DNA from: Sulfurimonas sp.
GTDB taxonomy: Bacteria; Campylobacterota; Campylobacteria; Campylobacterales; Sulfurimonadaceae
Length of the DNA stretch: 39,176 nucleotides
Direction: 5' to 3'
Assembly (NCBI GenBank): GCA_026988245.1
Contig: JALSLR010000086.1
Span: 1-39,176 of the forward strand
Below, piece after piece: positions 18,346 to 37,125 of this stretch (position 1 is its first letter; every line of letters begins with the position of its first letter). A program made the translations under genes and the position numbers. The notes beneath the pieces were generated by a model. That model saw only the letters and a list, made by a program, of their open reading frames with translations. It was not told where the DNA came from and searched no databases.

Positions 18346-18346
18346 T

Positions 18347-19492
18347 TTATCCCCCTATTGCTGCAGTTGGGTCTGCATTTATAACTTTTTTTACACCTAT
18401 AAATGAAGCAAATATTGAAGAGATAACTACTATAAAGAAGAGTGACCATGCATCAGATATCTCTAAAAGAACATTTTTTGGAAATTTTTCATAGATTAGA
18501 TGTGAAAATATATTTCCAAATATAAAGGCAAAAATTCCAAGGAGGAGTGTCTCTTCTACTATCATTTTTATGATGATAGAGTTTGGCAATCCTATGAGTT
18601 TCATGATAGATATCTCCTTCATCTTCTCTAAGGTCATCGTATAGATAATCAGTGCTATGATTATGGTCGATACTCCTACTAGAATAATAGTAAAAAGGCC
18701 TATCTGTTTAGAAGCTTTTTCTACTACATTTCTTGTTAGTACTACTTTTTGTTCAGCCCTTGTATAGACACTTTTATGGAGCCATTTACGTATCTCTTGT
18801 GCTGTTTTATCTACATTGTAGCCATCTTTAAGAGTTGCGATTATTGCATTGACTAGGTAAGAGTCTTTACTTAAAATACCTCGTGCCCTATCTGTTTGGA
18901 TACGTTTGTTTGTATAGGTGAATTGTAACTCTTGGGCATCTTTGAGACTTACATACACTAAGGGGTCGCCCCCTGATGCTACAGTACCATGTGTGATGCC
19001 TACTACAGTGTAATCATTTCTTCCAAGTCTAATCTTATCGTTGAGTTTATACAATGTTTTATCGCTTACTACTATTTCATAGTGGTCGTTTTGTAAGACT
19101 CTGCCTTGAATTAACCTTTGAGAACTGATAGGATTAATATCCCCATAAATATCATAACCAATAGCTAAAACAGCAAGTTTTCTATTTGCTAAGGGTAGTT
19201 GTAAGTTTTGAAAGGTAATAGCTTCGCTTTTATCTATAGCATTGATACCTTTTATAGTGTATTTAAGGTCTTCATGAACTCTTGATGCTTCAGCAAAGGG
19301 TCCTAATGTGTTATCTTGTACAATCCATAAATCAACACTTAAATCATCAAGCAGTACTTCGGCATCTGCTATCATTCCACGGTAAACTCCCATCATAATC
19401 AACACTATACCCAGAAGCATACCAACACCCATGGCAGTTACTATGAACTTTCCTAATGTATGTCGAATATCTTCTTTTGCTAAATGAATCAT
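18347..19492 (-). CDS. FtsX-like ABC transporter permease, DevC/MacB type
   Basis: A 381-residue membrane protein with one N-terminal membrane segment (about 15-37), a periplasmic domain of about 220 residues, and three C-terminal segments (about 260-375), the FtsX/MacB layout. The N-terminal DIRHTLGKFIVTAMGVGML and the periplasmic LSVDLWIVQDNTLGPFAEAS are of the DevC kind. The start overlaps the HlyD stop by four bases. With HlyD and TolC upstream it should form an ABC-powered tripartite exporter that acts on periplasmic or membrane substrates. Confidence 0.9.
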   Translation of the reverse strand: MIHLAKEDIRHTLGKFIVTAMGVGMLLGIVLIMMGVYRGMIADAEVLLDDLSVDLWIVQDNTLGPFAEASRVHEDLKYTIKGINAIDKSEAITFQNLQLPLANRKLAVLAIGYDIYGDINPISSQRLIQGRVLQNDHYEIVVSDKTLYKLNDKIRLGRNDYTVVGITHGTVASGGDPLVYVSLKDAQELQFTYTNKRIQTDRARGILSKDSYLVNAIIATLKDGYNVDKTAQEIRKWLHKSVYTRAEQKVVLTRNVVEKASKQIGLFTIILVGVSTIIIALIIYTMTLEKMKEISIMKLIGLPNSIIIKMIVEETLLLGIFAFIFGNIFSHLIYEKFPKNVLLEISDAWSLFFIVVISSIFASFIGVKKVINADPTAAIGG

Positions 19493-20631
19493 AAGTGAAT
19501 TTTCATCCCATTTTTGAGAGATTTTTTATGTGGATTAGGGACAATTATTTGTGTATTGGTATCTAAGTTCTTAATTGCCATCTCCTCGTCGTTTTGAGCA
19601 ATTTTTTCAACTAACTTAAAGTATGCTTTACTCTCTTTTAAAATCCAAACTCCTGTTTTTCCAGCATCTTGAACCAATACTTTAAGCGGGATTTTTTCTA
19701 CATTTGCTAAAGTATCTATATCTATGCTAACCTCTGCTTGTTCATTGATAAAAAAAGGCTTAGGGATGTGTAAAAAAGCTACATCGATTTCACGTTCAAG
19801 AGTTACAGAGTCACTTATAGTATTTATTTGTTTGACTATCCCCTCGTATACTTTACTTGGCTGAGAACGCAGTCGTATACTTGCTTTTTGTCCAAGTTTG
19901 ATTTGAGAACTTATTCTCTCATCTATCTTTGTTTCAACCCATAAAGTTTTGGCATCTACTAATTGTAGTATAGGGGTAGCAGGAAGAACATTTTGAGCAA
20001 CCTCTGCATCTTTTGAGATTATGTACCCATCCGCAGGTGCATATACTTTAAGTCTACTTATCTTTATTTTCAAAGCATCTATATTTCTTGAAGCTATGAG
20101 GGCAGCAGCTTTTGCAGAGTTTATGTGAGCTTTTGAGGCACTTATGGCTGCATCAATACTTTGTAAGTCCGCTTTTGCTTTGTCATATTCTGCCTGAGAT
20201 GCAAAGTTTTGTTCTTTAAGCTTTTCGTAGCGTTCATAGGTGATTTGTACAAGATCTCTTTGTGATTTTTGATTTTGTAGGTCATTTTTTGAAGCCTGTA
20301 TGTCGTACTTTGCTTTTTGCAGTGTTGCCTTAGCTATGGAAAGTTGTGATGGTAAGTCTACTCCATCCATCTTGATGAGTAGGTCACCTTTTTTTACCCA
20401 CTGACCTATATCTGTATAGATAGCTAAAATTTTACCACCTGTTTGTGCAGTGATGGCATAGATGTCGTTAGCTCCAACATTGCCAATGCCACGAATACTA
20501 ACTTGTAAATCTCCTCTAGTTGGAGTAATGACTTTATATGTTGTTTTTGGAATATAGACCTTGTTAAAAAAAAGTGTAGCACCTAAGAGTAAGACTATGA
20601 GTGTAATAATGTACTTTATATATTTTTTCAT
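19489..20631 (-). CDS. Periplasmic adaptor (HlyD/membrane fusion protein)
   Basis: A 380-residue adaptor with an N-terminal membrane anchor (about 5-23). A biotinyl-lipoyl-like half motif (AQTGGKILAIYTDIGQWVKK, about 63-82) precedes a long coiled-coil hairpin (about 100-185). The second lipoyl half is at LKVYAPADGYIISKDAEVAQ, followed by beta-barrel and membrane-proximal parts. This is the standard order for adaptors that bridge an inner-membrane pump to TolC. It overlaps both neighbours by four bases. Confidence 0.94.
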   Translation of the reverse strand: MKKYIKYIITLIVLLLGATLFFNKVYIPKTTYKVITPTRGDLQVSIRGIGNVGANDIYAITAQTGGKILAIYTDIGQWVKKGDLLIKMDGVDLPSQLSIAKATLQKAKYDIQASKNDLQNQKSQRDLVQITYERYEKLKEQNFASQAEYDKAKADLQSIDAAISASKAHINSAKAAALIASRNIDALKIKISRLKVYAPADGYIISKDAEVAQNVLPATPILQLVDAKTLWVETKIDERISSQIKLGQKASIRLRSQPSKVYEGIVKQINTISDSVTLEREIDVAFLHIPKPFFINEQAEVSIDIDTLANVEKIPLKVLVQDAGKTGVWILKESKAYFKLVEKIAQNDEEMAIKNLDTNTQIIVPNPHKKSLKNGMKIHL

Positions 20632-21866
20632 TTTGTTTTTCCTTGTAAATATTCTAGTTTATGAATAGCGCTACTGCGTTCATACCTTGCACTTAGTAGT
20701 CCAAGTTCAGCATCTAGTTTAAGAGCAGAGGCATCCAAGACCTCTATGTAAGTTGCTAATCCCTCTTTGTATCTAGCGTCTAAAAGATTACTAGTACTAT
20801 TTGCAGCATCAAGTTGTGCCATTTTTGCTGCTATAGTTTTTTCATACCGTTTGATGTCTATGATGAGGGATTCTACCTCCTCTCTTAAGGCTAAAACCTT
20901 GGAGTCATACTCTGCTTGTGAGCTTTGTATATTTATTTGTGCTTGTTGTGCTTGAGCTGAAACTCTTCCACCACTATATAGTGGGATATCTAAAGTCAAT
21001 CCAACAAGAGTTGAATCATAAGAGTTCAGAGTATCTTGATAGTTATACGAGGCTATAAAGTCTATAGAACCGTAGTGTGCAGAGTGTACCGAGTTGTATT
21101 CTAAAGAACTTTTCTCTATCCCTTTTTCGAGAGCCTGAAGGGATGGAGAATTTTGAATGATATTTTTTTCATTAGTACTTGGTTTTGTATAAAGAGAACT
21201 ATTGTTAAGTATGACATCACTTTGTATCGTCTCATTTATGTAGATTGAAAGAGTGTTTCTCGCTTTATCAAAACTTGCTTGAGAGATAGCTAGGTTATCT
21301 TTTGCAATGTAAAACGATGAGAGAAAGCGTGTAGCATCCGCGGATGTTTTCATCCCCTGTTCAACAAGTGCCTGTGCTTGTTTATAGAGTGCTTCTTTGG
21401 CTTCTAAATCTTTTTGTCGTACCTTCATTGCCCACCGTTGTACCAAGATGAGTTCATACTGTAGTTTTACCTTGTATACTAAGTATGCTTTTGCATCTTC
21501 AAGTGAAAGTTTAGCGATAGCTATACTTTGTTTTTGCGCGTCTATATTGGAAAGGGATCTGTCAAAATCCCATATTTTTTGATGAAGAGTTGTACTCACC
21601 TGATATCCATCACTATCAAGAGTATTAAACTGTCCGTTTACGGGAAGGACATACGTTTTTGTAGGATTATACTCAGCATTAAAGTTAACCTGTGGCAAAT
21701 AATCTGACCTAGCAACATCAACACCGCTTTTAGATTTATCTATTTGGAGTACAAATCTTTTGATGTCTGGGTGTGTATCCATTGCCTTACTTATGGCATC
21801 GTCAAGTGTTAACTCCTGAGCAATAAGACTAAAAAACATACTAAAGACTAATAAAATTTTTTTCAT
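20628..21866 (-). CDS. TolC-family outer membrane efflux protein
   Basis: A 412-residue protein with signal peptide MKKILLVFSMFFSLIAQ and two helical repeats typical of the outer-membrane efflux family, with VGLTLDIPLYSGGRVSAQAQ (about 286-305) as the marker of the second repeat. It should form the outer-membrane channel for the HlyD/ABC system encoded directly downstream. It is the first gene of the operon; a promoter and a Fur-box-like site lie 23-62 bases upstream of its ATG. The ribosome-binding site is weak. Confidence 0.93.
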   Translation of the reverse strand: MKKILLVFSMFFSLIAQELTLDDAISKAMDTHPDIKRFVLQIDKSKSGVDVARSDYLPQVNFNAEYNPTKTYVLPVNGQFNTLDSDGYQVSTTLHQKIWDFDRSLSNIDAQKQSIAIAKLSLEDAKAYLVYKVKLQYELILVQRWAMKVRQKDLEAKEALYKQAQALVEQGMKTSADATRFLSSFYIAKDNLAISQASFDKARNTLSIYINETIQSDVILNNSSLYTKPSTNEKNIIQNSPSLQALEKGIEKSSLEYNSVHSAHYGSIDFIASYNYQDTLNSYDSTLVGLTLDIPLYSGGRVSAQAQQAQINIQSSQAEYDSKVLALREEVESLIIDIKRYEKTIAAKMAQLDAANSTSNLLDARYKEGLATYIEVLDASALKLDAELGLLSARYERSSAIHKLEYLQGKTK

Positions 21867-24195: not shown

Positions 24196-24894
24196 CTACT
24201 TTAAAACATATACTATGGTTATTGTAAATTCTTTTGGAAAGTCAAAGAGAGTAGGACTTACTTCAACAGGGAAGCTTCTTTGTATAGCTTTTATAGCTGA
24301 ATGTTTAAAAGTTTTTCTTCCAGATATAACTTGAATATTTTGGACATTGCCATCAGATTTAACTTGAAAACTAAGTTCTATATCTCCTTCTATACCGCGT
24401 CTTCGCGCTCTTTTTGGATATGATTTATTATTATTAATACGTTGCACCAAGTTTTTTATAAAAAGGTCTTGTTCTTGTTTTATCATGTCAGTATTAGTTT
24501 GTACATTTTGAACTTTTTCTTTTATCTCTTCTTGTACTACTTCTTGCATGAGTATTTCTTTTTCTATTTCTTCCTCTGGAAGCTCTTCTATAATTTCTTC
24601 CACTATAGTTTCTTTTATAATTTTTTCTTCTACTATCTCTTGTTTTATGGGCTTCGATTCAGGTTTAGGCTTAGGCTTAGGCTTAGGTTTAGGTTTAGGT
24701 TTAGGTTTAGGTTTAGGTTTAGGTTTAGGTTTTTGCTTGCATTGTTGTGCTAAAATCGAAAAGTTTACCTTCTGTATCTTTTTATCTGAGACTATATGAC
24801 AACTTTCTTTTCTATTTAAAAAATAAAATACTAGAACCATAACGCTTATATACACTAAAAAAGCGATAAAAAATGAAAATATGTATCTTTTCAT
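24196..24894 (-). CDS. tonB: TonB-family energy transducer
   Basis: A 232-residue periplasm-spanning protein with one N-terminal membrane anchor (about 5-26), a Lys-Pro repeat spacer, an acidic helical stretch rich in Glu and Ile, and a C-terminal TonB domain (about 155-232: NKSYPKRARRRGIEGDIEL, then ITIVYVLK at the end). It should transmit proton-motive force from ExbB/ExbD to the receptor encoded at the start of the same operon. Unusually, it is the last of the ten genes and is separated from exbB/exbD by six others. Its start overlaps the RND gene stop by four bases. Confidence 0.93.
   Translation of the reverse strand: MKRYIFSFFIAFLVYISVMVLVFYFLNRKESCHIVSDKKIQKVNFSILAQQCKQKPKPKPKPKPKPKPKPKPKPKPKPESKPIKQEIVEEKIIKETIVEEIIEELPEEEIEKEILMQEVVQEEIKEKVQNVQTNTDMIKQEQDLFIKNLVQRINNNKSYPKRARRRGIEGDIELSFQVKSDGNVQNIQVISGRKTFKHSAIKAIQRSFPVEVSPTLFDFPKEFTITIVYVLK
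24661..24732. repeat. Hexanucleotide tandem repeat, 12 units, in tonB
   Basis: Twelve consecutive hexamers AGGTTT or AGGCTT (AAACCT/AAGCCT on the coding strand), each coding Lys-Pro in the TonB spacer. Three of the first four are the AGGCTT form; the rest are identical. A six-base unit keeps the frame, so slippage would change spacer length rather than switch the gene off. Confidence 0.9.
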
Positions 24895-27800
24895 ACTATT
24901 TTATACCTATGAAAAAAATTATACATAGTTGGAAGATATAATAGGTTGAGTATAGTCCCCCATAAAAGTCCAAACCCAATAGTGACTGCTAAAGGTTGAA
25001 ATGTCACCGCTTGACCAGAGGCAAAAAACATTAAAGAAGAAAGACCAATGATAGTAGTGATGGACGTTAAAATGATAGGTCTTAATCGTCTTTGAGCAAG
25101 GGTGAAGATATCATCTTTAGTTTGAGCAGTTTTGAGTGTAGACATCATGATGATTCCATCATTTACTATTACCCCTGCTAAGCCTAAGGCACCTATTAGA
25201 GAAGGAAGAGATATGTTCAATCCCATGATAAAATGACCCGCATATACACCTAAAATTGAAAATGGTATAACAGACATCACTATCAGTGTCTCCCTTAGTG
25301 AATTAAAGAGATATAAGATGGAGATAAATATTAAAATAATTGCAAGAGTAGATGCTAGAATCATCTCTGTCTGAAGCGTTCTTTTTTGTTCCCTTTCACC
25401 CCTAAAAATAAGTTTAACTCCATCTTGGTGTAATTTTTCAATAATAGGATTTATTTTTTCTAAGACTTCACTAGATGTTATAATTTTAGAATTAACATTT
25501 GCAAACACATAAAATGTTGTTTCTCCGTCATCTTTAACTAATCGTTCCAAAGTACTTACTTTTTCAAAGGAACATATATCTTGCAGTTTAACATAAACAT
25601 TACCTCTAAGAGGTATTTCAAACTCTTTAAAACTTTCTAAATCATCCTCAATATTAAAGGTTTTAACTTTAATATCTACGAGTTCATTCCCATCAAAAAT
25701 AGTCCCAACTTTACGTGAAAGATAAAGATTAGAAATATAGGTGCCAAGAGATTTTTCAGTGATACCTAATTCCTCTGCATAAGAGTTGAGTTTGAGTTTT
25801 ATCTCATAAGTTCCTAGTTTGACATTGTCACCAAAGTATTTAATACCTTTTATGTTTGAAAAACCCTTTTCAATGGCTCTTATAGCCCCTATAGCTTTTT
25901 TATAATCATCGCTTAATACACCTATTCGGATGTCTGCTTTTGTATGGCCCATCTTATTCTCAACTACCATGAGATTGGTGAGATTAAACTTGCTTTGATA
26001 TTTTTGTTCTTTTATCCATCTCCTTATATCTTGCGATATATCTTGAGAGTTACTATCCCTTGTTCTCCCTGTAGCATCATAATAAAAGCTAAGATAAGGT
26101 GTTATAAATCTATCGACAAAGTTTAAAGGTTTCATCTTCTTTAGTTCTATGGATATATAGCCAACGTAAGGGTACATCTCCGCTGAACCAGTAGCACTTC
26201 TTCTGTAACCTGCAGTAGAGCTAACATGCTTTACAAAAAATCTTTTTTTATTTTTTAATATCTCTTTTTCTAGTGTTTGAACAATCTTAAGTGATTCTTC
26301 AAGAGTCGTTGTTGGTTGGGCCTTAAAGGTTATGTTGATGGAGGAAGCATCAAAGGCTTGAAACATTTGAAATTTTGAACTCTTTACACCAAGAAAGATT
26401 AATGCAGGGACAAGTATCAAAAATGTCATTAAAAAACTTTTTTGATGCTTCACAAGAAGTCGTAAAGCTTTAGAATAAAGAATGTTGAATTTTTCCCATG
26501 AAAGTGTTTTTGATTTTGAACTTAAAGTATGAGAAGCATGAATTGGTAAAAAAATGAATGATTCTACGAGTGATGCTATAACTAAAGCCGAAAAAGCGAT
26601 AGGAATAAGTTGTATAATCTCTCCAAGCCTTCCACTTAGCATCAAAAGTGGTATGAAGGAAAATAAGGTTGTGATTGAGGCAATAGTGACAGGTTTAGCA
26701 ACCTCTTTAGCACCTAAAAAAGCTGCTTCTTTAGGGGGATACCCTTTCTCTATGTACTGTTGTATATTTTCACTTACAACGATAGCATCATCAACTATTA
26801 TCCCAATAGCTATGAGAACCCCAATGAGTGAATTAACATTGATAGAATAGCCAGTAAAGTAAAAATAAATAGCACCCATAACAAATGAAGTTGGAATACC
26901 AAGCGCTATAATAAATGCCATGCGAATATTGATAAGAACAGCAGTTAAAAATGTGATGAGAATAACACCAAAAAGAATGTTTGAGATAACTATGTTGAGA
27001 CGGTCTTTTATGACAGTTGACTTATCCATTCTTATATTTATCTCTACCCCATCAATACCAATTTTAGATACAAGAGTGTTAATATCTTTAGCGATGCTAA
27101 TAGCATCCCCTTTAGGGTTTTGTGATACTGCTAATGTGATGGAATTTTCTCCATTCATACTTGCAAGAGTTGAGGCATTTTCATATCTTTTTTTAATTTT
27201 TGCTATATCTTTAAGAGTGATTTGTTGGTCGTTTATGTTGATGATAGTATTTTTAAGATTCTTTGATAGTTCTTTATTGTTTTGAATGGATATAAAATAC
27301 TGTTCTTTTTTGTTGTCTATTTTACCTAAAGGAAAGATATAGGAAAGTTCTGAAAACATTCGCAATACTTCATCCATAGAAAGATTGTATGCTTTAACTT
27401 TTCGTTCATCTATAAGCACCTCATAAAAAAGTTCAGAATTTCCAAAAATTGTTACATCTGATACATCGGGTATAGATAAAAGTTTACTTTTAAAGTTTTT
27501 TGCTAACTCTTTGAGCTTATCTCTTGAGATACTTTTAGCTATCATAGAAACATGCATAATACTTCGTGAGTGTGCCACCCCTCGTATTATTGGATCATCC
27601 ATATCGCTAGGAAGGTTTATCTTAATGAGAGATATAGCATCTTCTACATCTGCTATTACATCAGTTTTTGTAACTCTTTTGTCGAGTTCTAAAATGATGG
27701 CAAATCTACCGGGAGATATGACAGAAGTAACCCTATCTACTCCAACGATATTTTTTACTTCATCTTCTATCTCTTGGACTGCCATCTTATTTAAACTAGC

Positions 27801-27974
27801 TACAGAAGCACCATTGTATGAGCCTCTTATAGTTATGGAGTTAGGCTCAATAGTAGGGGATATCTCTTTTGGAATCTTTGTGTAAGCATAGACACCCATC
27901 GCAAATATAAGAAAAAAGAGCGTATAGTTTAATTTATGATTTTGTATAAAAAACTTTAATATTTTATCAAACAT
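24891..27974 (-). CDS. RND-family inner-membrane transporter
   Basis: A 1027-residue protein of AcrB/HME-like layout: an N-terminal helix, a large periplasmic loop, six membrane segments, and then the same again. The TM4 proton-relay pair lies in IGIIVDDAIVVSENI near residue 395, and the second half has LAGVIVNDGIIMMSTL near residue 950. No adaptor or TolC gene adjoins it, which is unlike most RND pumps; it may use another adaptor (for example the HlyD at 19489-20631) or act alone. Its place between the activase gene (three-base gap) and tonB (four-base overlap) ties it to the reductase/TonB operon. Substrate and direction are unknown. Confidence 0.9.
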   Translation of the reverse strand: MFDKILKFFIQNHKLNYTLFFLIFAMGVYAYTKIPKEISPTIEPNSITIRGSYNGASVASLNKMAVQEIEDEVKNIVGVDRVTSVISPGRFAIILELDKRVTKTDVIADVEDAISLIKINLPSDMDDPIIRGVAHSRSIMHVSMIAKSISRDKLKELAKNFKSKLLSIPDVSDVTIFGNSELFYEVLIDERKVKAYNLSMDEVLRMFSELSYIFPLGKIDNKKEQYFISIQNNKELSKNLKNTIININDQQITLKDIAKIKKRYENASTLASMNGENSITLAVSQNPKGDAISIAKDINTLVSKIGIDGVEINIRMDKSTVIKDRLNIVISNILFGVILITFLTAVLINIRMAFIIALGIPTSFVMGAIYFYFTGYSINVNSLIGVLIAIGIIVDDAIVVSENIQQYIEKGYPPKEAAFLGAKEVAKPVTIASITTLFSFIPLLMLSGRLGEIIQLIPIAFSALVIASLVESFIFLPIHASHTLSSKSKTLSWEKFNILYSKALRLLVKHQKSFLMTFLILVPALIFLGVKSSKFQMFQAFDASSINITFKAQPTTTLEESLKIVQTLEKEILKNKKRFFVKHVSSTAGYRRSATGSAEMYPYVGYISIELKKMKPLNFVDRFITPYLSFYYDATGRTRDSNSQDISQDIRRWIKEQKYQSKFNLTNLMVVENKMGHTKADIRIGVLSDDYKKAIGAIRAIEKGFSNIKGIKYFGDNVKLGTYEIKLKLNSYAEELGITEKSLGTYISNLYLSRKVGTIFDGNELVDIKVKTFNIEDDLESFKEFEIPLRGNVYVKLQDICSFEKVSTLERLVKDDGETTFYVFANVNSKIITSSEVLEKINPIIEKLHQDGVKLIFRGEREQKRTLQTEMILASTLAIILIFISILYLFNSLRETLIVMSVIPFSILGVYAGHFIMGLNISLPSLIGALGLAGVIVNDGIIMMSTLKTAQTKDDIFTLAQRRLRPIILTSITTIIGLSSLMFFASGQAVTFQPLAVTIGFGLLWGTILNLLYLPTMYNFFHRYKIV

Positions 27975-27977
27975 TAA

Positions 27978-28787
27978 TTATTTTACGTCCCTTTCATATT
28001 GGTATGACTCATGTGCTAATATCGCCGCTCCAAAAGATGTAGTTATCTGAGGGAATTCAGGGATAAATATCTTTTTTGATAACTCATTTTCAATAGCATG
28101 AACTAAACCTTGATTAAGAGCTGGTCCACCATCAAAGTATATACTATCTTTTATACCTACTCTTTTTACAAGTTTTATAATTCGTTTAGCTATGGAGTAG
28201 TGAACACCGGCAACTATATCCTCTACGCTGTTATCATTGCCTAAAAGACCTATTATTTCAGATTCGGCAAAGACTGCACAGGTGCTGTTTATTGCTAATG
28301 GTGTACCAGAAGATTTGAAGTGATATTCACCTAGTTCATCGACTTCTAACTCAAGATTCATAGCTACTACATCTAAGAACTTACCTGTTCCAGCTGCACA
28401 TCTGTCATTCATAGCAAAGTTTACCACATTTCCATCTTCATCGAGAGATATTGCCTTAGAATCTTGTCCACCTATGTTGATAATAGTTTTAATGTTACAC
28501 TTATCGCCAGCAGCTGCTCTTGCTCCTAAAGCATTAGCAGTAATTTCACTGATATTTTCATCCGCCTCCTTAAAAAGCTTTCTTCCATAACCAGTTGAAA
28601 CTGTATAGACTAAATCATTTGTATCAATACTAAGTTCATTGAGCATATCTTTAAGACTTTGTTTTGCATACTTATAAAACATACTTCCACTTGCACTTAT
28701 CTTGTGACCTATCAACTCTTTATTTTCATTTATAAGTGCAACCTTTATCGCTGTTGAACCTATATCTATTCCTGCAAAGTATTTCAC
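27978..28787 (-). CDS. ATP-dependent activator of 2-hydroxyacyl-CoA dehydratase/double-cubane type (HgdC-like)
   Basis: A 269-residue ASKHA-fold ATPase of the BadF/BadG/BcrA/HgdC family. The phosphate-binding loop is GIDIGSTAIK (6-15), adenosine motifs are NIGGQDSKA and YFDGGPALN, and the two cysteines Cys130 (DRCAAGTG) and Cys170 (STCAVFAES) match the residues that hold one [4Fe-4S] cluster between two subunits in HgdC. Such proteins use ATP to raise the energy of an electron and pass it to a partner reductase. The partner is the gene immediately upstream, overlapping by four bases. Confidence 0.93.
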   Translation of the reverse strand: MKYFAGIDIGSTAIKVALINENKELIGHKISASGSMFYKYAKQSLKDMLNELSIDTNDLVYTVSTGYGRKLFKEADENISEITANALGARAAAGDKCNIKTIINIGGQDSKAISLDEDGNVVNFAMNDRCAAGTGKFLDVVAMNLELEVDELGEYHFKSSGTPLAINSTCAVFAESEIIGLLGNDNSVEDIVAGVHYSIAKRIIKLVKRVGIKDSIYFDGGPALNQGLVHAIENELSKKIFIPEFPQITTSFGAAILAHESYQYERDVK

Positions 28788-30055
28788 TTAGCTTTCCTTT
28801 TTCTATTTTTAAGAGACTCTACAAAAGCCTCTATTCTGGTTGTAAGTTGTCCTAAGTGACTTGGTGAGTAATCACTCTCTAGGTATATTATTGGGATACC
28901 CTCTTTCTCCATCGCTTCTAGCACAGAGCGTTGTTCCATCTCATATACTTGACAGCCTGCAAAAGCTTGGTAAACCACACCATCTGCCTTATATTCTCTT
29001 ACTAAATCTATAATTCTTCTTTTTCTATCATCATTTTTTGTAAAAATAGGGCAGGTGCAACCTTTTAAATACCTATCAGCTACACTGTCAACCATATCAT
29101 ATAAAAACCATTCATCAACACTAACCATATCATTAAACATTCTGTTAGAAGAACATGTTTCATCAGCTACAATTATGGCATCTGATTGTTCAATGAGGTA
29201 TGGAATTTTAAGATTTGGAAAGATTGGAGGGGAACCTGTGTAAACGATTCTTGGGCTTATTTTACGAGCTGCATCTGTACCGTCTTTTACTCTTTGTTCA
29301 CATTCAGATGCAAGTGCTTCTACTGCAGGTATCCATGCATCTATCTTGTCAAAGAAAAAAGCATTTGTTACCAAGAACATATCTACTCCTAGGAGTGGAG
29401 AGTGTGCATTTTTTCTTAAAGAGTTTAGTCTATGGTAGAGTGTTTGTGCATAACCGATTTTTTTAATTGATTCTTTGAGTTTTTTTCTTGTGAGTTTTTT
29501 GCCAAGATTGTTTGAGAGCTCTTTTGTGAATTTTCTAACACTTCGTCTCCAATATTCACGACTCTCTTCACTCTCTTTTGTTCTTGGAAACTCCATGTCG
29601 TATATATCAAAACCCATATCTTCGATAATGGCTCCAGACTTTGCTTTTTGGTCACAGGTTGTTGGAGATATGATGATGTCTGGTTTATCTGAGAAGTTAT
29701 TTGATGCAAATTGTCCAACTGTAGCTTTGACTAAGGGGCATGATTTTGAGGGAAGAAGATCACTCCCTATTTCATCATCCGTATAAAAGCCATTACATAG
29801 TCTAATTTGAACAGCATCAAGCGCATGTGTAATCTCTGCTGGTACCTGAATGCACATTGTTCCAACTTTTACTTTATCTGCGTGTAAGGGTTTTTGTTTA
29901 CAATGAACATCCTCATAAAGATTATAAAAATAATCCATAGCCTTAGGGGGTTCTTTAAAATCATGCTTGAGTTTTTCAAGCATAGAGATAGCCTCCATCG
30001 CTTTATGACGGTTTTGTTTCTCTTTAGGAGATTCTATCTTGTGTTCATGAATCAT
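28784..30055 (-). CDS. 2-hydroxyacyl-CoA dehydratase (HgdB/BcrC) family protein, possible double-cubane-cluster reductase
   Basis: A 423-residue soluble protein of the HgdB/BcrC/HadC family. A longer frame from 30100 is open, but GGGAG seven bases before the ATG at 30055 gives the better start, overlapping the NapH-like gene by 11 bases. It has ten cysteines: 52, 68, 87, 106, 134, 252, 301, 333, 335 and 368. Cys106 (SKSCPLVK), Cys134 (TTCDQK) and Cys368 (FAGCQVYEMEQR) fit the cluster ligands common to the family. The additional Cys68, Cys301 and Cys333/335 could bring the ligand number to the six needed for an [8Fe-9S] double-cubane cluster. A single subunit paired with one activator, with no second dehydratase subunit and no CoA-transferase or ligase nearby, also favours that type. 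The substrate is unknown. Confidence 0.85.
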   Translation of the reverse strand: MIHEHKIESPKEKQNRHKAMEAISMLEKLKHDFKEPPKAMDYFYNLYEDVHCKQKPLHADKVKVGTMCIQVPAEITHALDAVQIRLCNGFYTDDEIGSDLLPSKSCPLVKATVGQFASNNFSDKPDIIISPTTCDQKAKSGAIIEDMGFDIYDMEFPRTKESEESREYWRRSVRKFTKELSNNLGKKLTRKKLKESIKKIGYAQTLYHRLNSLRKNAHSPLLGVDMFLVTNAFFFDKIDAWIPAVEALASECEQRVKDGTDAARKISPRIVYTGSPPIFPNLKIPYLIEQSDAIIVADETCSSNRMFNDMVSVDEWFLYDMVDSVADRYLKGCTCPIFTKNDDRKRRIIDLVREYKADGVVYQAFAGCQVYEMEQRSVLEAMEKEGIPIIYLESDYSPSHLGQLTTRIEAFVESLKNRKRKAK

Positions 30056-31031
30056 TTTTTTTCTCCCACGTATCCATCTCCATTCTTTTCGCAAATCCAC
30101 CTTTTGTTGATTTAAAAATTGGATAATTTACAAGATCAACATGCAAGGCATCATCCTCAGGGCATGCTGCTACACATTTTAAGCATAGTATACAGTCGTC
30201 TCTTAATATATTTGTGCTTTGTACATCATCTGCTATATCTTTTATTTGCATATCACATACATTATAACAATCTCCACATTTTGTACATTTATCACCATCT
30301 TTTTTTAGTTTTAGTAGTGCGGTATCACTAAAGATATAATGCATAGCACTCATAGGACAAAAAAAGCAAAAAAATCTTTTTTTTATGAATGATCCAACAA
30401 AAAAAAGTGCTGTAAAAATTAATCCAAATGAGGAAAGAAAAATAGCTGTTTTGGTTGAAAAATCAATGCTCCATTGAGAGAAATCTCCAACAAACATCGG
30501 TGTAATTACTCTTGCTGGACACATGTCACAAAAAGCACCACGCCACTCACCATCAAGTAGACCTAGCCCTATTAATAGTGGAAAAATTATGACTATAATC
30601 AAGAAAATATATTTTATTTTTTTGAGAGATTTATATTGTGTATCGTTATAGGTACTATATGGTATCCCTAAGAACTTTCTAAATGATGTTATCCAATCTT
30701 GAAGTGTCCCCATAGGGCATGCATACCCGCACCAAGCTTTGTTAAATACTATGAACCATAGTAAAAATACTAGAAAACTAGTAAGTACACCAATACTTGC
30801 TGCACTAAAAAGTGTCTCCCACGGTCGTGCTAGTTGATGTTGTAATGGCATAAAGTAGCATGTTCCAGCAGTTTCATGGTTATACCCACATGAAAAAACA
30901 GGAATCTCTCGCCCTAAGTCAATAGCAAGATACCCACCATAAATAAAAAACACAAAGAAAAACAGTTGTAACCAAAAACGAAATTTTCTCAAATCTGCAT
31001 AGTTAATGAAATGTTTTATCTTTTTAATCAT
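30045..31031 (-). CDS. NapH-like membrane polyferredoxin
   Basis: A 328-residue inner-membrane Fe-S protein with about four to five membrane segments. It carries CxxCP-type motifs CGYACPMG, CDMCPAR and CFFCPMSA, then two C-terminal [4Fe-4S] ferredoxin motifs, CTKCGDCYNVC and CILCLKCVAACP. This is the NapH/NosR-C-terminal/CcoG-like layout that passes electrons from quinol or other donors across the membrane. An ATG at 31091 is open, but AAGAGG before the ATG at 31031, and the eight-base overlap ATGATTAA with the preceding stop, favour 31031. In this operon it probably supplies electrons to the cytoplasmic activator/reductase pair. No nap genes are nearby, so it is not called napH. Confidence 0.9.
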   Translation of the reverse strand: MIKKIKHFINYADLRKFRFWLQLFFFVFFIYGGYLAIDLGREIPVFSCGYNHETAGTCYFMPLQHQLARPWETLFSAASIGVLTSFLVFLLWFIVFNKAWCGYACPMGTLQDWITSFRKFLGIPYSTYNDTQYKSLKKIKYIFLIIVIIFPLLIGLGLLDGEWRGAFCDMCPARVITPMFVGDFSQWSIDFSTKTAIFLSSFGLIFTALFFVGSFIKKRFFCFFCPMSAMHYIFSDTALLKLKKDGDKCTKCGDCYNVCDMQIKDIADDVQSTNILRDDCILCLKCVAACPEDDALHVDLVNYPIFKSTKGGFAKRMEMDTWEKKNDS

Positions 31032-33354
31032 CGAAATGTACCTCTTTAAATGGTTTTTGTAATCTGTATCTATAAAGGTATATAGCTCCACTAAGAAGTA
31101 TAATGATAATTAAAGTGATGACAAACCCGTAAGAATAAGATGAATAGGCCTCCCTAGGAGGGGTAAAGATACCACTAAAACTTGCTTTGTATTTTTTTGA
31201 ATCTTCAGTGTATGTAGCTACAACAAGAAAATTTTCTTTAAATCTTTTGTTGAACTTATTCCATTTTGGAAGATAGTCTTGAATGAGTTGAATTTTAGCG
31301 ATACCATTGGCATCTGTTTTAAGATTTTTTTGCCAACCAAACTGTGTAGTTAATGATATGTTTACACCACTTTGTGCAACGCCATTTTTAATGACTTTAA
31401 ATTTCAATACATCTCCACTATGCGGACGTGAATAAAATGTTTCATCTTCTGCTCTAAGTTGTAAAATATCAAAAGGTATCTCTTGTATTGTTTTTGCAGA
31501 CATTTTTTCTTTTTCATAGATTGCTTCTGCACTATGATCAAATCTTTTATACTCGTACTTAGCTACATTAATACTATGTGGTGTTTCTAGGAGGTAATAA
31601 ACTTTGTAGTAACCACTTTTTGGCATTTTAAAACTTATGCTTGTGCAAGATTTTTGATTGAGTTTTACTTCTACGAGATTGTTGTCTATATCAGTTGCAA
31701 AAAATTTCCCTATTGTGTTGTGTACACATTTAGTATCATCTAAAGGGTCTGTAACTAACCAAACTTTTTTGCTTGGAACTTTTGATCTATCTCTTGTTCC
31801 CATCATATGTGCACCACTATGCCCCATTCTTGATACAGGTGTTGGCTTTTTGTCACTAAAGTATACAGTGTCTAGTGGCTTTGTTGACTTGCTTAGGATG
31901 TTTATGTTTTTAGAATGATTAGAATCAGTACTTTTCATAGCATGTGAACTGTGTGATCCATGCGTACCTCTACTAGCTCTTCCATATGTATCTAAAATAT
32001 AAGATCTATAACTATTGACACCTAAAAAGAAGATAACAAGAAGGGCCGCAAAGGGAAAGGCAAGGGTTTTTCTTAGCTTAGTGCTATCTATGAGTTTCAT
32101 TCTTTTGTATAGTATTATAAGTGCCCAAATGATAGCTATCCATTTGAGTATGCCAAAGACTGCTAACCATTTATCACCGCGTGATGCCAAAGAAGCAATA
32201 TCTACTTTGCCAAATCCAAATCCAAAAGCAAAACCTTCTATGATTCTGTCATATCCTCTCGTAAAAAAAGATTCAAGTGAGTGTGCTATAGATCCTAATA
32301 TAAATAAAGGTGCATAAGAATAGCCTAGGTCATAAAATGTTTTTTTATAATCTTTTTGAAGAATTTTAGATGCTATATACATACCTAAGGTGGCTGCTAT
32401 GATAGTAAAGAGCATTGCGTATAAAAATGCAAAAAGACCAACTGCATCAACAGAACCAAAATCTATAAAGCCTTTAAAGTATTCAGCAGTTTTTGCCCAA
32501 ATCATATCACTTGCAACTTTACTTCTTCCTAGTCCATGATGAAATGCCATACTAATAGGTATAGCTGCTAAGATAAGTATAAACGTCCATACTTCAGCTT
32601 TTAAAATTTGAAATTTTGAAAAGAGGGAAAAAGAGGGCTTTTTTACTTTAAAACTTATAGCTTCACAAGCTGCTGAACAATCCATACAAAGTGTACAGTC
32701 TGTCATTGAGTTTCTTCCATCAAAAGTAAATGGTTTTAGATTGTGTTGACAAGCTGTTGCGCATTCAAAAGTTTTGCACTCATTACAAGCGCTTTTGTAG
32801 CTTCCAAGCCAAGTAAATGAAAGTTTTGCATAGGCACGCGTAAGTGTTCCAATGGGGCATATATATTTACAATAACTCATATCTCTGTATATAAAGTAGA
32901 TGATAAACGCAAGTATGGTCATTACAAGGAACATCATAGCTGTACCAAAAGGAGTTCTGTATATACCTGGGAACATATAGTATATCCCCCACCAACCAAT
33001 AACCAATATGAAGACACCTATATACTGGTTTTGCATCCATTTTGGCATCTTTTTTTTAAGTCCAAATTTTGTTATGTATTTACCTAAAAAGCCATGAGGA
33101 CAGATTCCACAAAAAACGCGTCCTAGCGTTGGAAGTGTGACCACCATGAAGAGTGACCAAAAGATACCCCAAAAAACTGCCCATGTAAAAGTGTTGTCTT
33201 TTCCTTGATGTGTAAACCCAAAATAGATAGCATAAAAAAAGATGAAAGCTACAACTATTTTGAGTGTCATGATAAATTTTTGATTTTTGAATAAAAAACC
33301 TAGTATAGGCTTTGCATAAATATCATCTTTATCGCGTTTTATAAAATCTACCAT
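31024..33354 (-). CDS. NosR/NapH-like polyferredoxin fused to a His/Met-rich periplasmic domain
   Basis: A 776-residue membrane protein. The first 235 residues have membrane segments, the motifs CGICPHG (82-88) and CKYICPIG (162-169), and two cluster motifs at Cys190/193/198/202 and Cys220/223/226/230. Further membrane segments follow to about residue 465. A stretch rich in His and Met (HGSHSSHAMK, then MGHSGAHMMGT) leads into a beta-rich region of about 200 residues that includes GVAQSGVNISLTTQFGW and LKTDANGIAKI, similar in style to DUF4198-type domains found with metal uptake systems. A final membrane segment ends the protein. Electron transport is clear from the cysteines; metal binding by the periplasmic part is inference. 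NosZ and the N-terminal FMN domain of NosR are absent. Confidence 0.85.
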   Translation of the reverse strand: MVDFIKRDKDDIYAKPILGFLFKNQKFIMTLKIVVAFIFFYAIYFGFTHQGKDNTFTWAVFWGIFWSLFMVVTLPTLGRVFCGICPHGFLGKYITKFGLKKKMPKWMQNQYIGVFILVIGWWGIYYMFPGIYRTPFGTAMMFLVMTILAFIIYFIYRDMSYCKYICPIGTLTRAYAKLSFTWLGSYKSACNECKTFECATACQHNLKPFTFDGRNSMTDCTLCMDCSAACEAISFKVKKPSFSLFSKFQILKAEVWTFILILAAIPISMAFHHGLGRSKVASDMIWAKTAEYFKGFIDFGSVDAVGLFAFLYAMLFTIIAATLGMYIASKILQKDYKKTFYDLGYSYAPLFILGSIAHSLESFFTRGYDRIIEGFAFGFGFGKVDIASLASRGDKWLAVFGILKWIAIIWALIILYKRMKLIDSTKLRKTLAFPFAALLVIFFLGVNSYRSYILDTYGRASRGTHGSHSSHAMKSTDSNHSKNINILSKSTKPLDTVYFSDKKPTPVSRMGHSGAHMMGTRDRSKVPSKKVWLVTDPLDDTKCVHNTIGKFFATDIDNNLVEVKLNQKSCTSISFKMPKSGYYKVYYLLETPHSINVAKYEYKRFDHSAEAIYEKEKMSAKTIQEIPFDILQLRAEDETFYSRPHSGDVLKFKVIKNGVAQSGVNISLTTQFGWQKNLKTDANGIAKIQLIQDYLPKWNKFNKRFKENFLVVATYTEDSKKYKASFSGIFTPPREAYSSYSYGFVITLIIIILLSGAIYLYRYRLQKPFKEVHFDD

Positions 33355-33374
33355 ATTATATTCCTGTTTATTTG

Positions 33375-34034
33375 TTAAAGTATTAATATACCATTTAAAA
33401 CTAATACACCTACACTCACAAGAAGGAGTGCGGCTAATCGTTCGATGAAATGCTTATAGGATGAAAATTGAATCATCAAACCTTTGATAAGCTTAGAGAC
33501 TATAAATCCATAAAAAAGGATGGAAAACATAACTGCACCAAGACCAAAAAAAAGACCAAGTCCAATGGTGTTATAGATATTGTTACTATTTGCTGCAACA
33601 GCTAAAAGCGCCATAATAGGAGCACAAGGGTTAAGAGACATGGTCGCACCAATAGTGAAAAAACCAAATTTATTAAGATTGGATTTTTTTACTATTAGTG
33701 ATGTCTGTGTGCAAGATGAATTTTTATCAAAACTTTTATAAAAAAGATATATACCCATACTTATAGTGCTAAACCCAAGTATAAAAGTAAAGATTTGGTT
33801 GTCATCTAGTATCTGTTTAACCCATGCAGAACTAAGGTATGCGACGATTGCTATAAATGTATAGCTAAAGATTCTTCCCAAACTAAAAGGAAGTATAATT
33901 CCTAATGATTCTTTTGTATTGTTTGCATTGCTAATGAGCAGTGGACTTAAAAACGGCATGCAGGAAAACATACACGCAGTAGCTCCATATGAAAGCCCTA
34001 TGATGAAAATTGAAAAAAATGTTGCAAACTCCAT
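33375..34034 (-). CDS. CcdA/DsbD-like (SafE/UreH-type) membrane protein
   Basis: A 219-residue protein with six predicted membrane segments in two similar halves. Cys25 in CMFSCMPFLSP and Cys137 in SLNPCAPIMALL are placed as in CcdA and the membrane domain of DsbD, which carry reducing power across the membrane by a disulfide pair. Cys21 and Cys108 are extra. Proteins of this superfamily are also linked to metal handling (UreH-like). Its position between exbD (11-base gap) and the large polyferredoxin (20-base gap) suggests it keeps periplasmic cysteines of the system reduced or helps assemble a metal or heme part. Confidence 0.8.
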   Translation of the reverse strand: MEFATFFSIFIIGLSYGATACMFSCMPFLSPLLISNANNTKESLGIILPFSLGRIFSYTFIAIVAYLSSAWVKQILDDNQIFTFILGFSTISMGIYLFYKSFDKNSSCTQTSLIVKKSNLNKFGFFTIGATMSLNPCAPIMALLAVAANSNNIYNTIGLGLFFGLGAVMFSILFYGFIVSKLIKGLMIQFSSYKHFIERLAALLLVSVGVLVLNGILIL

Positions 34035-34045
34035 CTTAGAACTTT

Positions 34046-34429
34046 TTAGTTGTTTTTCTTGGTTATTATGCCAAGGTTTTTAAAATTTTTAGCCTCTAAA
34101 TTATCTAAAAGCAAAACAAAAAAGTCAAATTTTGCTTCTCTGTCACAATTGATATGAACAGGAATGTTATTGTTATAGTTTGAGAGATTCATAAGTATAT
34201 CTTTTTCTAAAATAGCTTTTTTATTAAAAAAAATACTGCCATCTTTTTTAATGCTAATGCTAAGTTTTTTTAGATTATCTTGCTTAGCTGCTGTTTTGGA
34301 ATTTGGTAAATCAACAGGTATTACTCCTTTTGCTACAAAGGTTGCAGTGGTTAACACAATGACAAGAAGGACTAACATAATATCTATGAATGGGACTACA
34401 TTAATCGAATCAAATTTTTTAACTTGCAA
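34046..34429 (-). CDS. exbD: ExbD/TolR-family proton channel subunit
   Basis: A 127-residue protein with one membrane segment at about 10-30 that holds the essential Asp16 (NVVPFIDIMLVLLV), and a periplasmic domain of about 95 residues. With ExbB it uses proton flow to power TonB. It overlaps the ExbB gene by 11 bases and is followed by the CcdA-like gene after 11 bases. Confidence 0.95.
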   Translation of the reverse strand: MQVKKFDSINVVPFIDIMLVLLVIVLTTATFVAKGVIPVDLPNSKTAAKQDNLKKLSISIKKDGSIFFNKKAILEKDILMNLSNYNNNIPVHINCDREAKFDFFVLLLDNLEAKNFKNLGIITKKNN

Positions 34430-34862
34430 TTTTTCTCTTTTGTTCTATATCCCATCTAGCTAGAATAACTTCAATTTTTCTAGCTAAGTGGTTGTAAAAT
34501 ATGATGGATGGAATTGCCACTACAAGACCCATAGCAGTAGCCTTAAGGGCTAGAGCTAGGGAGGTCATTATCATTTTAACATCAACATCGCTACTTTGAC
34601 CCATGAGATAAAATGTAATGATTATTCCAAATACAGTGCCTAACAGTCCGATATAGGGAGCATTAGAACCAAAGGTTGATATGATGTTAATATTGTTTGT
34701 TAAAACAATCTCAAGCTCCTCTTTTGTTTCAAATTTTTTTATATCTAAAGTTTTGTAAAACAGAAGCCTTTCTATCCAAAACCATAAAGCCATGAAACTC
34801 ATTATTCCAAGTATCCCTATAATTCCATAGTCAAGCATATCTTTTATTAGTTCTATATTCAT
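34419..34862 (-). CDS. exbB: ExbB/TolQ/MotA-family proton channel subunit
   Basis: A 147-residue protein with three membrane segments (about 10-30, 65-90, 100-125) and the family stretch SNAPYIGLLGTVFGIIITF followed by SLALALKATAMGLVVAIPS. It is short for ExbB, as in the small ExbB forms of Campylobacterota. A longer frame from 34907 would overlap the receptor gene; the ATG at 34862, 19 bases after the receptor stop, gives the normal N terminus MNIELIKDMLDYGIIGI. It works with ExbD downstream. Confidence 0.93.
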   Translation of the reverse strand: MNIELIKDMLDYGIIGILGIMSFMALWFWIERLLFYKTLDIKKFETKEELEIVLTNNINIISTFGSNAPYIGLLGTVFGIIITFYLMGQSSDVDVKMIMTSLALALKATAMGLVVAIPSIIFYNHLARKIEVILARWDIEQKRKIAS

Positions 34863-34881
34863 CTTTTTTATCTTATATTTA

Positions 34882-37053
34882 CTAGAATTTTGCTGATAAT
34901 CCAGCAAGATATACCCTACCTGGATTTACAGTTAAGCCCATGTCTCTCACATCGTATATCCCATCATCATTTCTATCACCAGTCACACGAGGCATCATAT
35001 AGTACTGCTCATTAAGAACATTGTCAACTTGAGCAAAAAGCTCTATGTCGAAGATTGAAACATTAAGATTATATTTAGTTCTCAAGTTAGCTACTGCATA
35101 GCCATCTACTTCTATCATATTTCTTTCATCCGCAAACTGTGCTGTTCGGTAGTTTACATCTGCAGTCATAGACCAGTTAGACATAATTTTATATGTACCT
35201 TCTAAATAAAAGGTATGATTAGATGTTCTAGGCACAGTATTTCCACCTAAATCATATATTGTTGAAGTAGTTTCACCCTCTAAAAGTAGTGCAAAGTTAT
35301 CGTATTTTGTATATATTGAATCTAAGTATGTATAGTTAAATGCAAATGAGAAGTCTTTTGCTCTATTACTATTTAGAGAAAGTTCTAAACCTCTATTTCT
35401 GATATCTGACATATTTCCATAAGATACATTTTCACTTCCATCTGGTGAAGAATAATTCCCCGTACTTTTAGCTATCACATCGTTTCTGGATAGTTGATAA
35501 ATAGCTATATCATAAGTTAGCATATCTGATTTAGATCTATATCCGAGTTCAACATTATATGTTTTTTCTGTTTTCATATTTATATTGTTTTCATATGTAA
35601 TGCCTCTTGAAGTACCAGTTATGTCACCAGCAAAGAGTTGTGAGATGAGTGGTACACGAAAACCGGTAGAACCATTAGTGTAGATTACTGATGTTGCCTC
35701 TAGTTTGTATGTAGCTCCAAGTCTATAAGAAGCTTCATTAAACTCTTTATCCCAATTAGAAGAATCCAAATGATTTGAATAGTTATATTTTATTTGATCA
35801 TATCTTGCATTTAGTGTAGTAGTCAGTGCGTTAGTAATACCATACTTTAGTTCACCATATATCGCATTTATATCTTCCTTGTTTGTATTATTACTAGCTA
35901 CATCACCTATGGCATAAAGAGTCCCTCTGCTTGTGTAATCAACTCTTACCTTAGAGTCTCTATCTGTTGTATTTCTAGCTATATCTATACCAAGCATTGC
36001 CGCTAGTGTATCACCACCTGTTCTAAGCTCAGTTTTAAAACCTTGTTGAAGAGTATCTGCAAAAGAGCTATAGAGATGATCATCTCTCACACCATCACCT
36101 ACTGTGTCAATAGCACTACTTTTGTTAGTAGTAATATCCTCATAGTTATATATCTGCGACATTAGGCTTAAGCCATTATCAAAATCTTTAGCATAAGTAA
36201 GAAAATATTTAGAAAGTTCTATCTCATAGCCAACAGCATAACCAACTTCACCCTTACTCGTAGGATTTGTTTCAACATTGTTTGTATATACACCGTTTCC
36301 TATAGGTGTGCCATCAAAAGTTGCATAAGTAATTGAACCTGTGTCATTTTCAAACCTTGTCGATTTATCAATACCAAGTGTAATATCACTACTGTCATCT
36401 ATATAGTATTGAAGTTTACCATTGAGAGATTTTGCCCAATAATCTGAGTCTTCCCAATACCCATCACTTTCTTTAGAACTTGCTTGAAATCTAACAGCTA
36501 AATCTTCTGTTCCTCCCGTGAAACTTGCGATATATTTTGCATATCCATAACTTCCTTGTTCTGTGCTCACGAAAGCTTCGTTTTTGTTTTTAGCTTTTTT
36601 TGTTGTGATGATGACTGCTCCAGCTAAAGCATCATTTCCATAAAGGTAAGAAGCCCCACCTTTGATAACTTTAATACTTTCAATATTATCACTATCAATG
36701 TTAATACTACCAGCTCTCTCTTGAACGGGTACCCCATCTATAACGATAGCTACACCAGGCTTCTCTCCCATATACATCTCTGCAGCTATACCCCTAATAT
36801 GTATCTTATTTGAGTCCCCTTCATTTCTTCTTACTGTAACACCTGGAACAGTATTTAAAACATCTGCAATATTTTTAGAGTGAAACTCTTCTATCTTTGC
36901 ACCTGTTACAGTTGTTGTGTTTGAAACCTCAAGCATTTTTGATTCAAATTTGTCATCAATAGTTGATGATTCTACCTGAATAGTTCCTAAATCAGATGCG
37001 TTGGCATTCACTATGAGTGCACAAATTACTGATAGTAATATCTTTTTTTTCAT
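34882..37053 (-). CDS. TonB-dependent outer membrane receptor
   Basis: A 723-residue receptor with signal peptide (1-19), a TonB-box-like LGTIQVES just after cleavage, a plug domain (about 45-155: NIADVLNTVPGVTVRR, HIRGI, VPVQERAG, YLYGNDALAGAVIITTKK) and a 22-strand-type barrel ending in the C-terminal Phe (YLAGLSAKF). Such receptors import chelated metals, corrinoids or other large or scarce compounds. The ligand cannot be read from sequence. It is the first gene of the operon that also codes for ExbB, ExbD, the electron-transfer proteins and, at the far end, TonB. AAGGGA six bases upstream supports the start. Confidence 0.95.
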   Translation of the reverse strand: MKKKILLSVICALIVNANASDLGTIQVESSTIDDKFESKMLEVSNTTTVTGAKIEEFHSKNIADVLNTVPGVTVRRNEGDSNKIHIRGIAAEMYMGEKPGVAIVIDGVPVQERAGSINIDSDNIESIKVIKGGASYLYGNDALAGAVIITTKKAKNKNEAFVSTEQGSYGYAKYIASFTGGTEDLAVRFQASSKESDGYWEDSDYWAKSLNGKLQYYIDDSSDITLGIDKSTRFENDTGSITYATFDGTPIGNGVYTNNVETNPTSKGEVGYAVGYEIELSKYFLTYAKDFDNGLSLMSQIYNYEDITTNKSSAIDTVGDGVRDDHLYSSFADTLQQGFKTELRTGGDTLAAMLGIDIARNTTDRDSKVRVDYTSRGTLYAIGDVASNNTNKEDINAIYGELKYGITNALTTTLNARYDQIKYNYSNHLDSSNWDKEFNEASYRLGATYKLEATSVIYTNGSTGFRVPLISQLFAGDITGTSRGITYENNINMKTEKTYNVELGYRSKSDMLTYDIAIYQLSRNDVIAKSTGNYSSPDGSENVSYGNMSDIRNRGLELSLNSNRAKDFSFAFNYTYLDSIYTKYDNFALLLEGETTSTIYDLGGNTVPRTSNHTFYLEGTYKIMSNWSMTADVNYRTAQFADERNMIEVDGYAVANLRTKYNLNVSIFDIELFAQVDNVLNEQYYMMPRVTGDRNDDGIYDVRDMGLTVNPGRVYLAGLSAKF

Positions 37054-37085: not shown

Positions 37086-37125
37086 AGTATAGAGTAGTAA
37101 CGTTAGATATTTGTTAATTGTTAAT
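37086..37125 (-). promoter_or_regulatory. Candidate promoter and TGTTAAT direct repeat upstream of the TonB receptor
   Basis: On the minus strand TATACT (37086-37091) lies 32 bases before the receptor ATG and could be the -10 box. Just upstream the plus strand shows two adjacent TGTTAAT units (around 37112-37125), which may be a regulator site. There is no Fur-box match comparable to the one before TolC. Confidence 0.35.

Follow-up and report, generated by a model that had tools for sequence, protein, structure and literature searches.

The Operon and Its Genes

The stretch of DNA considered here, called the window below, covers 39,176 nucleotides of a Sulfurimonas sp. genome (assembly GCA_026988245.1, contig JALSLR010000086.1, positions 1 to 39,176; genome of 2.19 Mb in 120 contigs, 94% complete). 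It carries ten open reading frames (ORFs), all on the minus strand from 37053 to 24196, which bring together TonB-dependent uptake, membrane ferredoxins and a double-cubane-cluster protein (DCCP) with its ATP-dependent activator. Overlaps or gaps between successive ORFs nowhere exceed 20 bases, which bears out the original prediction, made from the sequence alone, of a single ten-gene operon with this same end. Pfam and NCBIfam searches agree with the family that it had assigned to each gene. The features are the following:

37086-37117, minus strand: promoter box TTAACAAATATCTAACG (37117-37101) and -10-like TATACT (37091-37086); position weight matrix (PWM) score, genome pattern match, position as in relatives
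34882-37053, minus strand: TonB-dependent receptor, 723 residues; Pfam Plug and barrel, NCBIfam, PDB
34419-34907, minus strand: ExbB; Pfam MotA_ExbB
34046-34429, minus strand: ExbD; Pfam ExbD
33375-34034, minus strand: CcdA/DsbD_2-like membrane protein; Pfam, Cys conservation
31024-33354, minus strand: polyferredoxin; Pfam Fer4_5, AlphaFold2 model, Foldseek, conservation
30045-31091, minus strand: NapH-like membrane ferredoxin; Pfam, NCBIfam, Cys conservation
28784-30100, minus strand: DCCP of a separate clade, HGD-D family; NF040772, PDB, Cys comparison
27978-28787, minus strand: ATP-dependent activator, HgdC/DCCP-R type; Pfam BcrAD_BadFG, PDB, Cys conservation
24891-27974, minus strand: RND permease, optional member; Pfam ACR_tran, synteny
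24196-24894, minus strand: TonB-like energy transducer, optional member; Pfam TonB_C

The NapH-like and HGD-D genes probably start slightly downstream of their longest-ORF starts. The flanks of the operon are ordinary, with a divergent elongation factor P gene upstream and a tRNA-guanine transglycosylase gene downstream.

A Conserved Cassette in Campylobacteria

Of 397 Campylobacteria genomes, 65 encode a homolog of the polyferredoxin. The comparison took in some 20 kb of DNA around 40 of these homologs and around named relatives, and then around further double-cubane matches. The long form of the cassette runs receptor, (ExbBD), CcdA-like protein, polyferredoxin, NapH-like protein, double-cubane protein, activator, (RND), (TonB). 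The short form, which lacks the double-cubane half, runs receptor, (ExbBD), polyferredoxin N-half, (RND), TonB. ExbBD, RND and TonB are the variable members.

The double-cubane proteins of this class are bimodal, with 59-85% identity to the window protein in the cassette clade and 29-35% in the ordinary copies, beside three short partial matches (36-75% over fewer than 100 residues). A DUF4198-like domain, fused to the polyferredoxin or encoded by its own gene, lies within 9 kb of the double-cubane gene in all 36 intact members of the cassette clade, and nearly all of these loci also encode a TonB receptor, a NapH-like protein and a CcdA-like protein. None of ten ordinary double-cubane genes has a DUF4198-like domain, TonB receptor, NapH-like or CcdA-like neighbor. 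The double-cubane cassette is present in at least six families, and its arrangement is far beyond chance. The receptor and the reductase had been predicted to belong together, a view that would have fallen if the two halves were rarely adjacent in relatives; they are adjacent in nearly all members of this 36-member clade. Seven loci devoid of the polyferredoxin N-half still have the receptor and the DUF4198-like domain, and mostly the NapH-like gene too. Taken with the co-occurrence, this defines a core module of receptor, DUF4198-like domain, NapH-like protein, double-cubane protein, activator and CcdA-like protein.

Plasmid searches gave one true relative, a long cassette on a 395-kb plasmid record of Sulfurovum mangrovi ST1-3, with locus tags LN246_RS14995-RS15035. 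Its first cassette receptor is annotated as two CDS (locus L097, 7794-10045), being broken or frameshifted, and a second receptor follows the RND gene.

The Double-Cubane Protein and Its Activator

The PDB structures nearest to the HGD-D protein are those of DCCPs (7yyl and 6eno, E 8e-64 and 2e-63), followed at a distance by BzdN (E 5e-18), in line with the earlier call of a double-cubane-type reductase rather than one of the CoA-dehydratase type. Its score against the DCCP model NF040772, 339.7 bits, stays ten bits under the curated cut-off of 350, which fits a divergent clade; it is thus named here a DCCP-like protein of a separate clade. The characterized DCCP/DCCP-R pair of Carboxydothermus hydrogenoformans (6ENO, 7YYL) is similar in fold, in the shared cluster cysteines and in having a dedicated ATP-driven activator. 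Seven cysteines are common to all cassette and ordinary DCCPs, presumably with the six cluster ligands among them. What sets the cassette clade apart from the Carboxydothermus protein is two additional invariant cysteines (67 and 348) and many changed invariant positions. Since these clade-specific residues lie beside the shared cluster cysteines, a changed substrate is plausible. Another difference concerns the setting: window-type DCCPs are embedded in a TonB/metal cassette, whereas the ordinary Campylobacteria copies stand with an activator alone. Outside the cassette, locus L094 (8266-11153) has two ordinary double-cubane genes in tandem, then one activator, a possible heterodimer.

The activator gene (27978-28787) adjoins the double-cubane gene. 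Both cluster cysteines of its product (130 and 170) are invariant in 34 of 34 relatives, and its PDB matches are 4eht, 1hux and 7yyl_E. No second activator above the Pfam cut-off is encoded elsewhere in the genome of the window.

Characterized DCCPs reduce nitrogenase-type test substrates, acetylene, azide and hydrazine among other small molecules, and their biological function has been stated as unknown (PMC11971306). The double cubane of BzdN is described as an electron store or relay (PMC11971306), and a relay role is therefore possible for the cassette protein.

Membrane and Periplasmic Partners

The N-half of the polyferredoxin (residues ~1-475) contains 12 Fe-S cysteines and two histidines (273 and 358) that are invariant in 47 sequences. 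Both histidines fall in predicted membrane helices, and from these features this half is presumed to be a metal reductase. The AlphaFold2 model of the whole protein (pLDDT 82) suggests nine probable membrane helices followed by a C-terminal beta domain, from which we infer that this domain is periplasmic. The C-half consists of a His/Met-rich linker, a domain of DUF4198 fold and one transmembrane helix. The C-terminal domain corresponds to residues ~465-735. The "large polyferredoxin" of the original prediction is thus confirmed by Fer4_5, except for its C-terminal 300 residues, which are not ferredoxin. Foldseek pairs the modeled C-terminal domain with Zcp, whose solved structures contain zinc, copper and cobalt, and with 9gcb, a DUF4198 protein with bound nickel (E 1e-5 to 2e-7, target TM 0.53-0.61). 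At the sequence level, its match to DUF4198 (PF10670) remains under the Pfam cut-off (20.5 bits vs 34, E 6e-4).

In seven searched genomes, the polyferredoxin of the short cassette ends in a NosL domain (PF05573) over the Pfam cut-off (53-70 bits in relatives, one double-cubane cassette included, vs 24). A NosL domain also occurs in double-cubane cassettes. In genome G134 it lies between the polyferredoxin N-half and the DUF4198-like domain (52.7 bits), and a NosL profile of our own detects the same insert in L034, L035, L037, L038, L039, L052, L053, L058 and L065. The polyferredoxin has the Fer4_5 membrane ferredoxin architecture and the copper-enzyme context in common with the CcoG cupric reductase and the NosR/NapH polyferredoxins. 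It differs from them by extra membrane helices with the two invariant histidines, and the cassette polyferredoxins by their periplasmic DUF4198 or NosL domains. Searches with NCBIfam gave no match to the CcoG/FixG/RdxA model, and weak matches only to NosR and NapH.

Two other membrane partners have conserved redox cysteines. All 16 cysteines of the NapH-like protein are invariant in 37 sequences, including pairs away from the Fe-S motifs (C68/C78 and C188/C191), as are all four cysteines of the CcdA-like protein (21, 25, 108 and 137) in 35 relatives. The nearest solved relatives of the receptor in the PDB are YncD/PqqU, FoxA, CntO and PhuR. The operon supplies the RND permease with neither a membrane-fusion nor an outer-membrane partner, and such partners are usually not adjacent in relatives either.

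A Promoter Box Shared with Copper Genes

A direct repeat, TTAACA-N5-TTAACA, precedes the operon 47 bp from the start of the receptor gene, the position that it also takes in relatives; most cassette receptors have this repeat, then a -10-like sequence. The 11-bp spacing is that of direct repeats bound by OmpR/PhoB-type response regulators. In these genomes, the strict repeat outnumbers its backward control about 2.4-fold (187 vs 78). The genes behind the non-cassette repeats include NosL, PCuAC, NosZ, DsbD_2 followed by CcoN and CcoO, ExbB-ExbD, and a response regulator/sensor kinase pair. Other box-controlled receptors have as best NCBIfam model TIGR01778, the TonB-dependent copper receptor (156-196 bits, cut-off 472). 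A copper gene stands behind 33 of the 68 fetched non-cassette sites but behind only 1 of 30 backward-control sites, and this one overlaps a true site. The corresponding Fisher p = 5e-6 is only a guide, since the real sites were picked by hand, in part because their sequence recurred, and the tool chose the control loci.

The relation holds in both directions. A PWM built from non-cassette copper genes alone ranks the operon promoter top in the window, with a score of 12.0 against a maximum of 10.6 in 168 control upstream regions, and places 37 other promoters of this receptor family above that maximum. Conversely, a matrix trained on the cassettes matches 10 of the 25 stand-alone NosL genes that Pfam detects, compared with 1.8% of controls. 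The extended pattern matches the genome of the window at five sites, and its control nowhere. These sites lie before the present operon, a copper-type receptor, the RND gene behind that receptor and a cytochrome-like gene of 141 residues, with one site lacking a suitable gene. We found no literature description of a TTAACA regulon, which has the look of copper-related regulation in this phylum. The idea that the repeat is a PHO box, for phosphate control, was rejected, the downstream genes being CcoN, NosL and PCuAC.

Several loci add to the picture of this regulon. NosZ (N2O reductase) genes start behind the repeat at L113 (4320-6929), L114 (4534-7143) and L136 (10987-13584), which apparently brings a major copper enzyme under this regulon as well. 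A second box-controlled locus of the same genome (contig C60, L168, 928-8252) encodes the copper-type TonB receptor, an HAE3-type RND protein with its own box, a secreted protein of 259 residues, a probable outer-membrane protein of 490 residues and a 193-residue membrane protein resembling cytochrome b561. DUF302 genes follow single or double TTAACA repeats at L117 (4412-4882) and L152 (4241-4717). Within the window, a weak box-like site (9.7 bits) precedes the TolC-like gene (20628-21866) of a MacAB-type export cluster made of MFS, ABC ATPase, MacB-like, HlyD-like and TolC-like genes (16478-21866).

Orthologs of one OmpR-type regulator, paired with a short kinase of 280-287 residues (apparently two transmembrane helices, no sensor domain), lie beside cassettes or ExbBD-TonB genes at L070 (12648-14148), L148 (1213-2728), L048 (16980-18471), L055, L067, L071, L072 and L075; at L148, a box precedes the regulator gene itself. 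In the genome of the window, the best candidate for a cognate regulator has 48% identity, and the kinases are unlike the short sensorless kinase of the relatives.

Proposed Mechanism

The operon is best read as a copper-acquisition system for copper scarcity, which combines TonB import, reduction by the polyferredoxin and ATP-driven double-cubane electrons; we estimate the probability of this reading at about 0.6. Judged by comparison of sequences, a link to copper is itself very probable. It is supported by the box shared with copper genes, the NosL domain in the polyferredoxin of relatives and the DUF4198 fold of the C-terminal domain. The cargo, originally given as an unknown compound or metal complex, would thus contain a metal, most likely copper, and its import by the TonB receptor is supported. 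A reductive role for the double-cubane protein within such a copper system appears likely. That its ATP-driven electron pump opens copper complexes whose stability defeats ordinary reductases, the ligand or sulfide-bound copper being what it reduces, is a more tentative proposal, which we hold at slightly below even odds. The substrate and the compartment proposed below for this protein are tentative.

The receptor, powered by ExbB-ExbD-TonB, would carry a copper complex into the periplasm. The polyferredoxin, with the domains described above, would pass electrons across the inner membrane and reduce copper like the CcoG-type cupric reductases. The reduced copper could then be handed to the periplasmic domain of the same protein, of DUF4198 fold in the window and accompanied by NosL in relatives, to be used by NosZ and the cbb3 oxidase. 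In parallel, the activator/double-cubane pair would spend ATP to yield electrons of very low potential. Their most likely route is outward by way of the NapH-like protein, and the CcdA-like protein would deal with thiols. The target of these electrons may be copper that sulfide, a thiolate or a strong chelator keeps closed to ordinary reductants; once emptied, the ligand may be exported by the RND permease. An OmpR-type response regulator would drive transcription at the TTAACA-N5-TTAACA box, the box and its regulon being apparent from sequence. Outward flow is favored because no cassette compared has an inner-membrane importer of ABC or MFS type and the constant partners are membrane or periplasmic proteins. 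The direction first predicted, with both polyferredoxins feeding the activator/reductase pair, is thus doubtful, outward flow being at least as likely.

The closest known parallel lies in Bordetella pertussis, where the copper-chelate TonB receptor CrtA works with the PepSY_TM reductase CrpH (PMC12914433, PMC13038864). Both systems would share a receptor for chelated copper adjoining a membrane metal reductase, induction by copper starvation and service to heme-copper oxidases. In contrast, the membrane reductase is here an iron-sulfur polyferredoxin with fused metal-binding domains, to which an ATP-driven double-cubane module is added. CcoG is cited as a cupric reductase in three papers (PMC12914433, PMC13038864, PMC8267372). 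As originally stated, no pathway is known to combine these genes, and none was found in the literature.

Weighing the Alternatives

Several observations count against the copper-acquisition reading, which stands on sequence and structure comparison. The cassette receptor does not match TIGR01778, the OprC/NosA-type copper receptor model. Fifteen of the 25 NosL genes tested have no box. The window polyferredoxin lacks the NosL insert and has the His/Met-rich linker in its place. Close relatives of the receptor (61-63% identity) also occur in short cassettes devoid of the double-cubane half (L061, L066), which is thus not obligatory. Finally, reduction of Cu(II) to Cu(I) needs no low potential, which leaves the use of ATP unexplained unless a ligand or sulfide-bound Cu(I) is targeted. 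In a variant of this reading, copper is imported likewise but the double-cubane protein acts in the cytosol, destroying the imported complex or ligand (an isonitrile, cyanide, thioamide or similar chelating group) by ATP-driven reduction and freeing the copper. The acetylene, azide and hydrazine activities of DCCPs (PMC11971306) and the clade's own invariant residues fit such chemistry, but the missing ABC or MFS importer and the membrane or periplasmic nature of the DUF4198-like, NapH-like and CcdA-like partners make it unlikely. Azide, cyanide and acetylene are inhibitors of NosZ or oxidases. The double-cubane protein could protect copper enzymes by removing small inhibitors, an idea favored by this overlap with the DCCP test substrates (PMC11971306) and by the regulon shared with NosZ and CcoN; it leaves the fixed linkage to a periplasmic metal-binding domain and TonB receptors unexplained, and is quite improbable.

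Uptake of iron, or of metal chelates in general, with reductive release was considered first. The family scores of the receptor in NCBIfam resemble those of siderophore and heme receptors, and DUF4198 proteins bind Ni, Zn and Co too. In Caulobacter and Alteromonas, DUF4198 genes are under Fur control and connected with the reduction of iron in the periplasm (PMC3751524, PMC7190382, PMC11870441). These PepSY/DUF4198/DUF2271 loci (CC3059-3063 in Caulobacter) resemble the operon in having a DUF4198 protein, a TonB receptor and a membrane reductase; they differ as Fur-controlled iron systems with a PepSY reductase and no double-cubane protein. The iron or heme reading was demoted because the promoter motif led to copper genes. 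No iron-transport gene is found among the classified box-controlled genes, and NosL, which is fused to the polyferredoxin of relatives, is a copper-chaperone family. Iron or broad uptake would then have to share the promoter through a regulator sensing the respiration or redox state, and has in our view a low probability. As for a 2-hydroxyacyl-CoA dehydratase or benzoyl-CoA reductase pathway, the HGD-D and activator families are those expected, but there is a single reductase gene instead of two different subunits and DCCPs are its nearest structures. Neither a second, different HgdB-type subunit nor CoA-ester pathway genes were seen in the window or the relatives compared. A CoA-ester dehydratase pathway around the homologs would, according to the original prediction, have spoken against its own reading. 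The probability of such a pathway is close to nil.

Significance

The fixed genetic setting of this double-cubane clade, together with its promoter motif, its probable metal and a carrier available in culture, makes the function of DCCPs directly testable. Should the opening of copper complexes by the ATP-driven pair be confirmed, DCCPs would gain a first physiological role, and this would be, to our knowledge, the first known nutrient-metal uptake system to use ATP-driven low-potential chemistry of the nitrogenase kind. It would reveal, too, how the sulfide-loving Campylobacterota, with their N2O reductase and cbb3 oxidase, get the copper that sulfide makes nearly unavailable.

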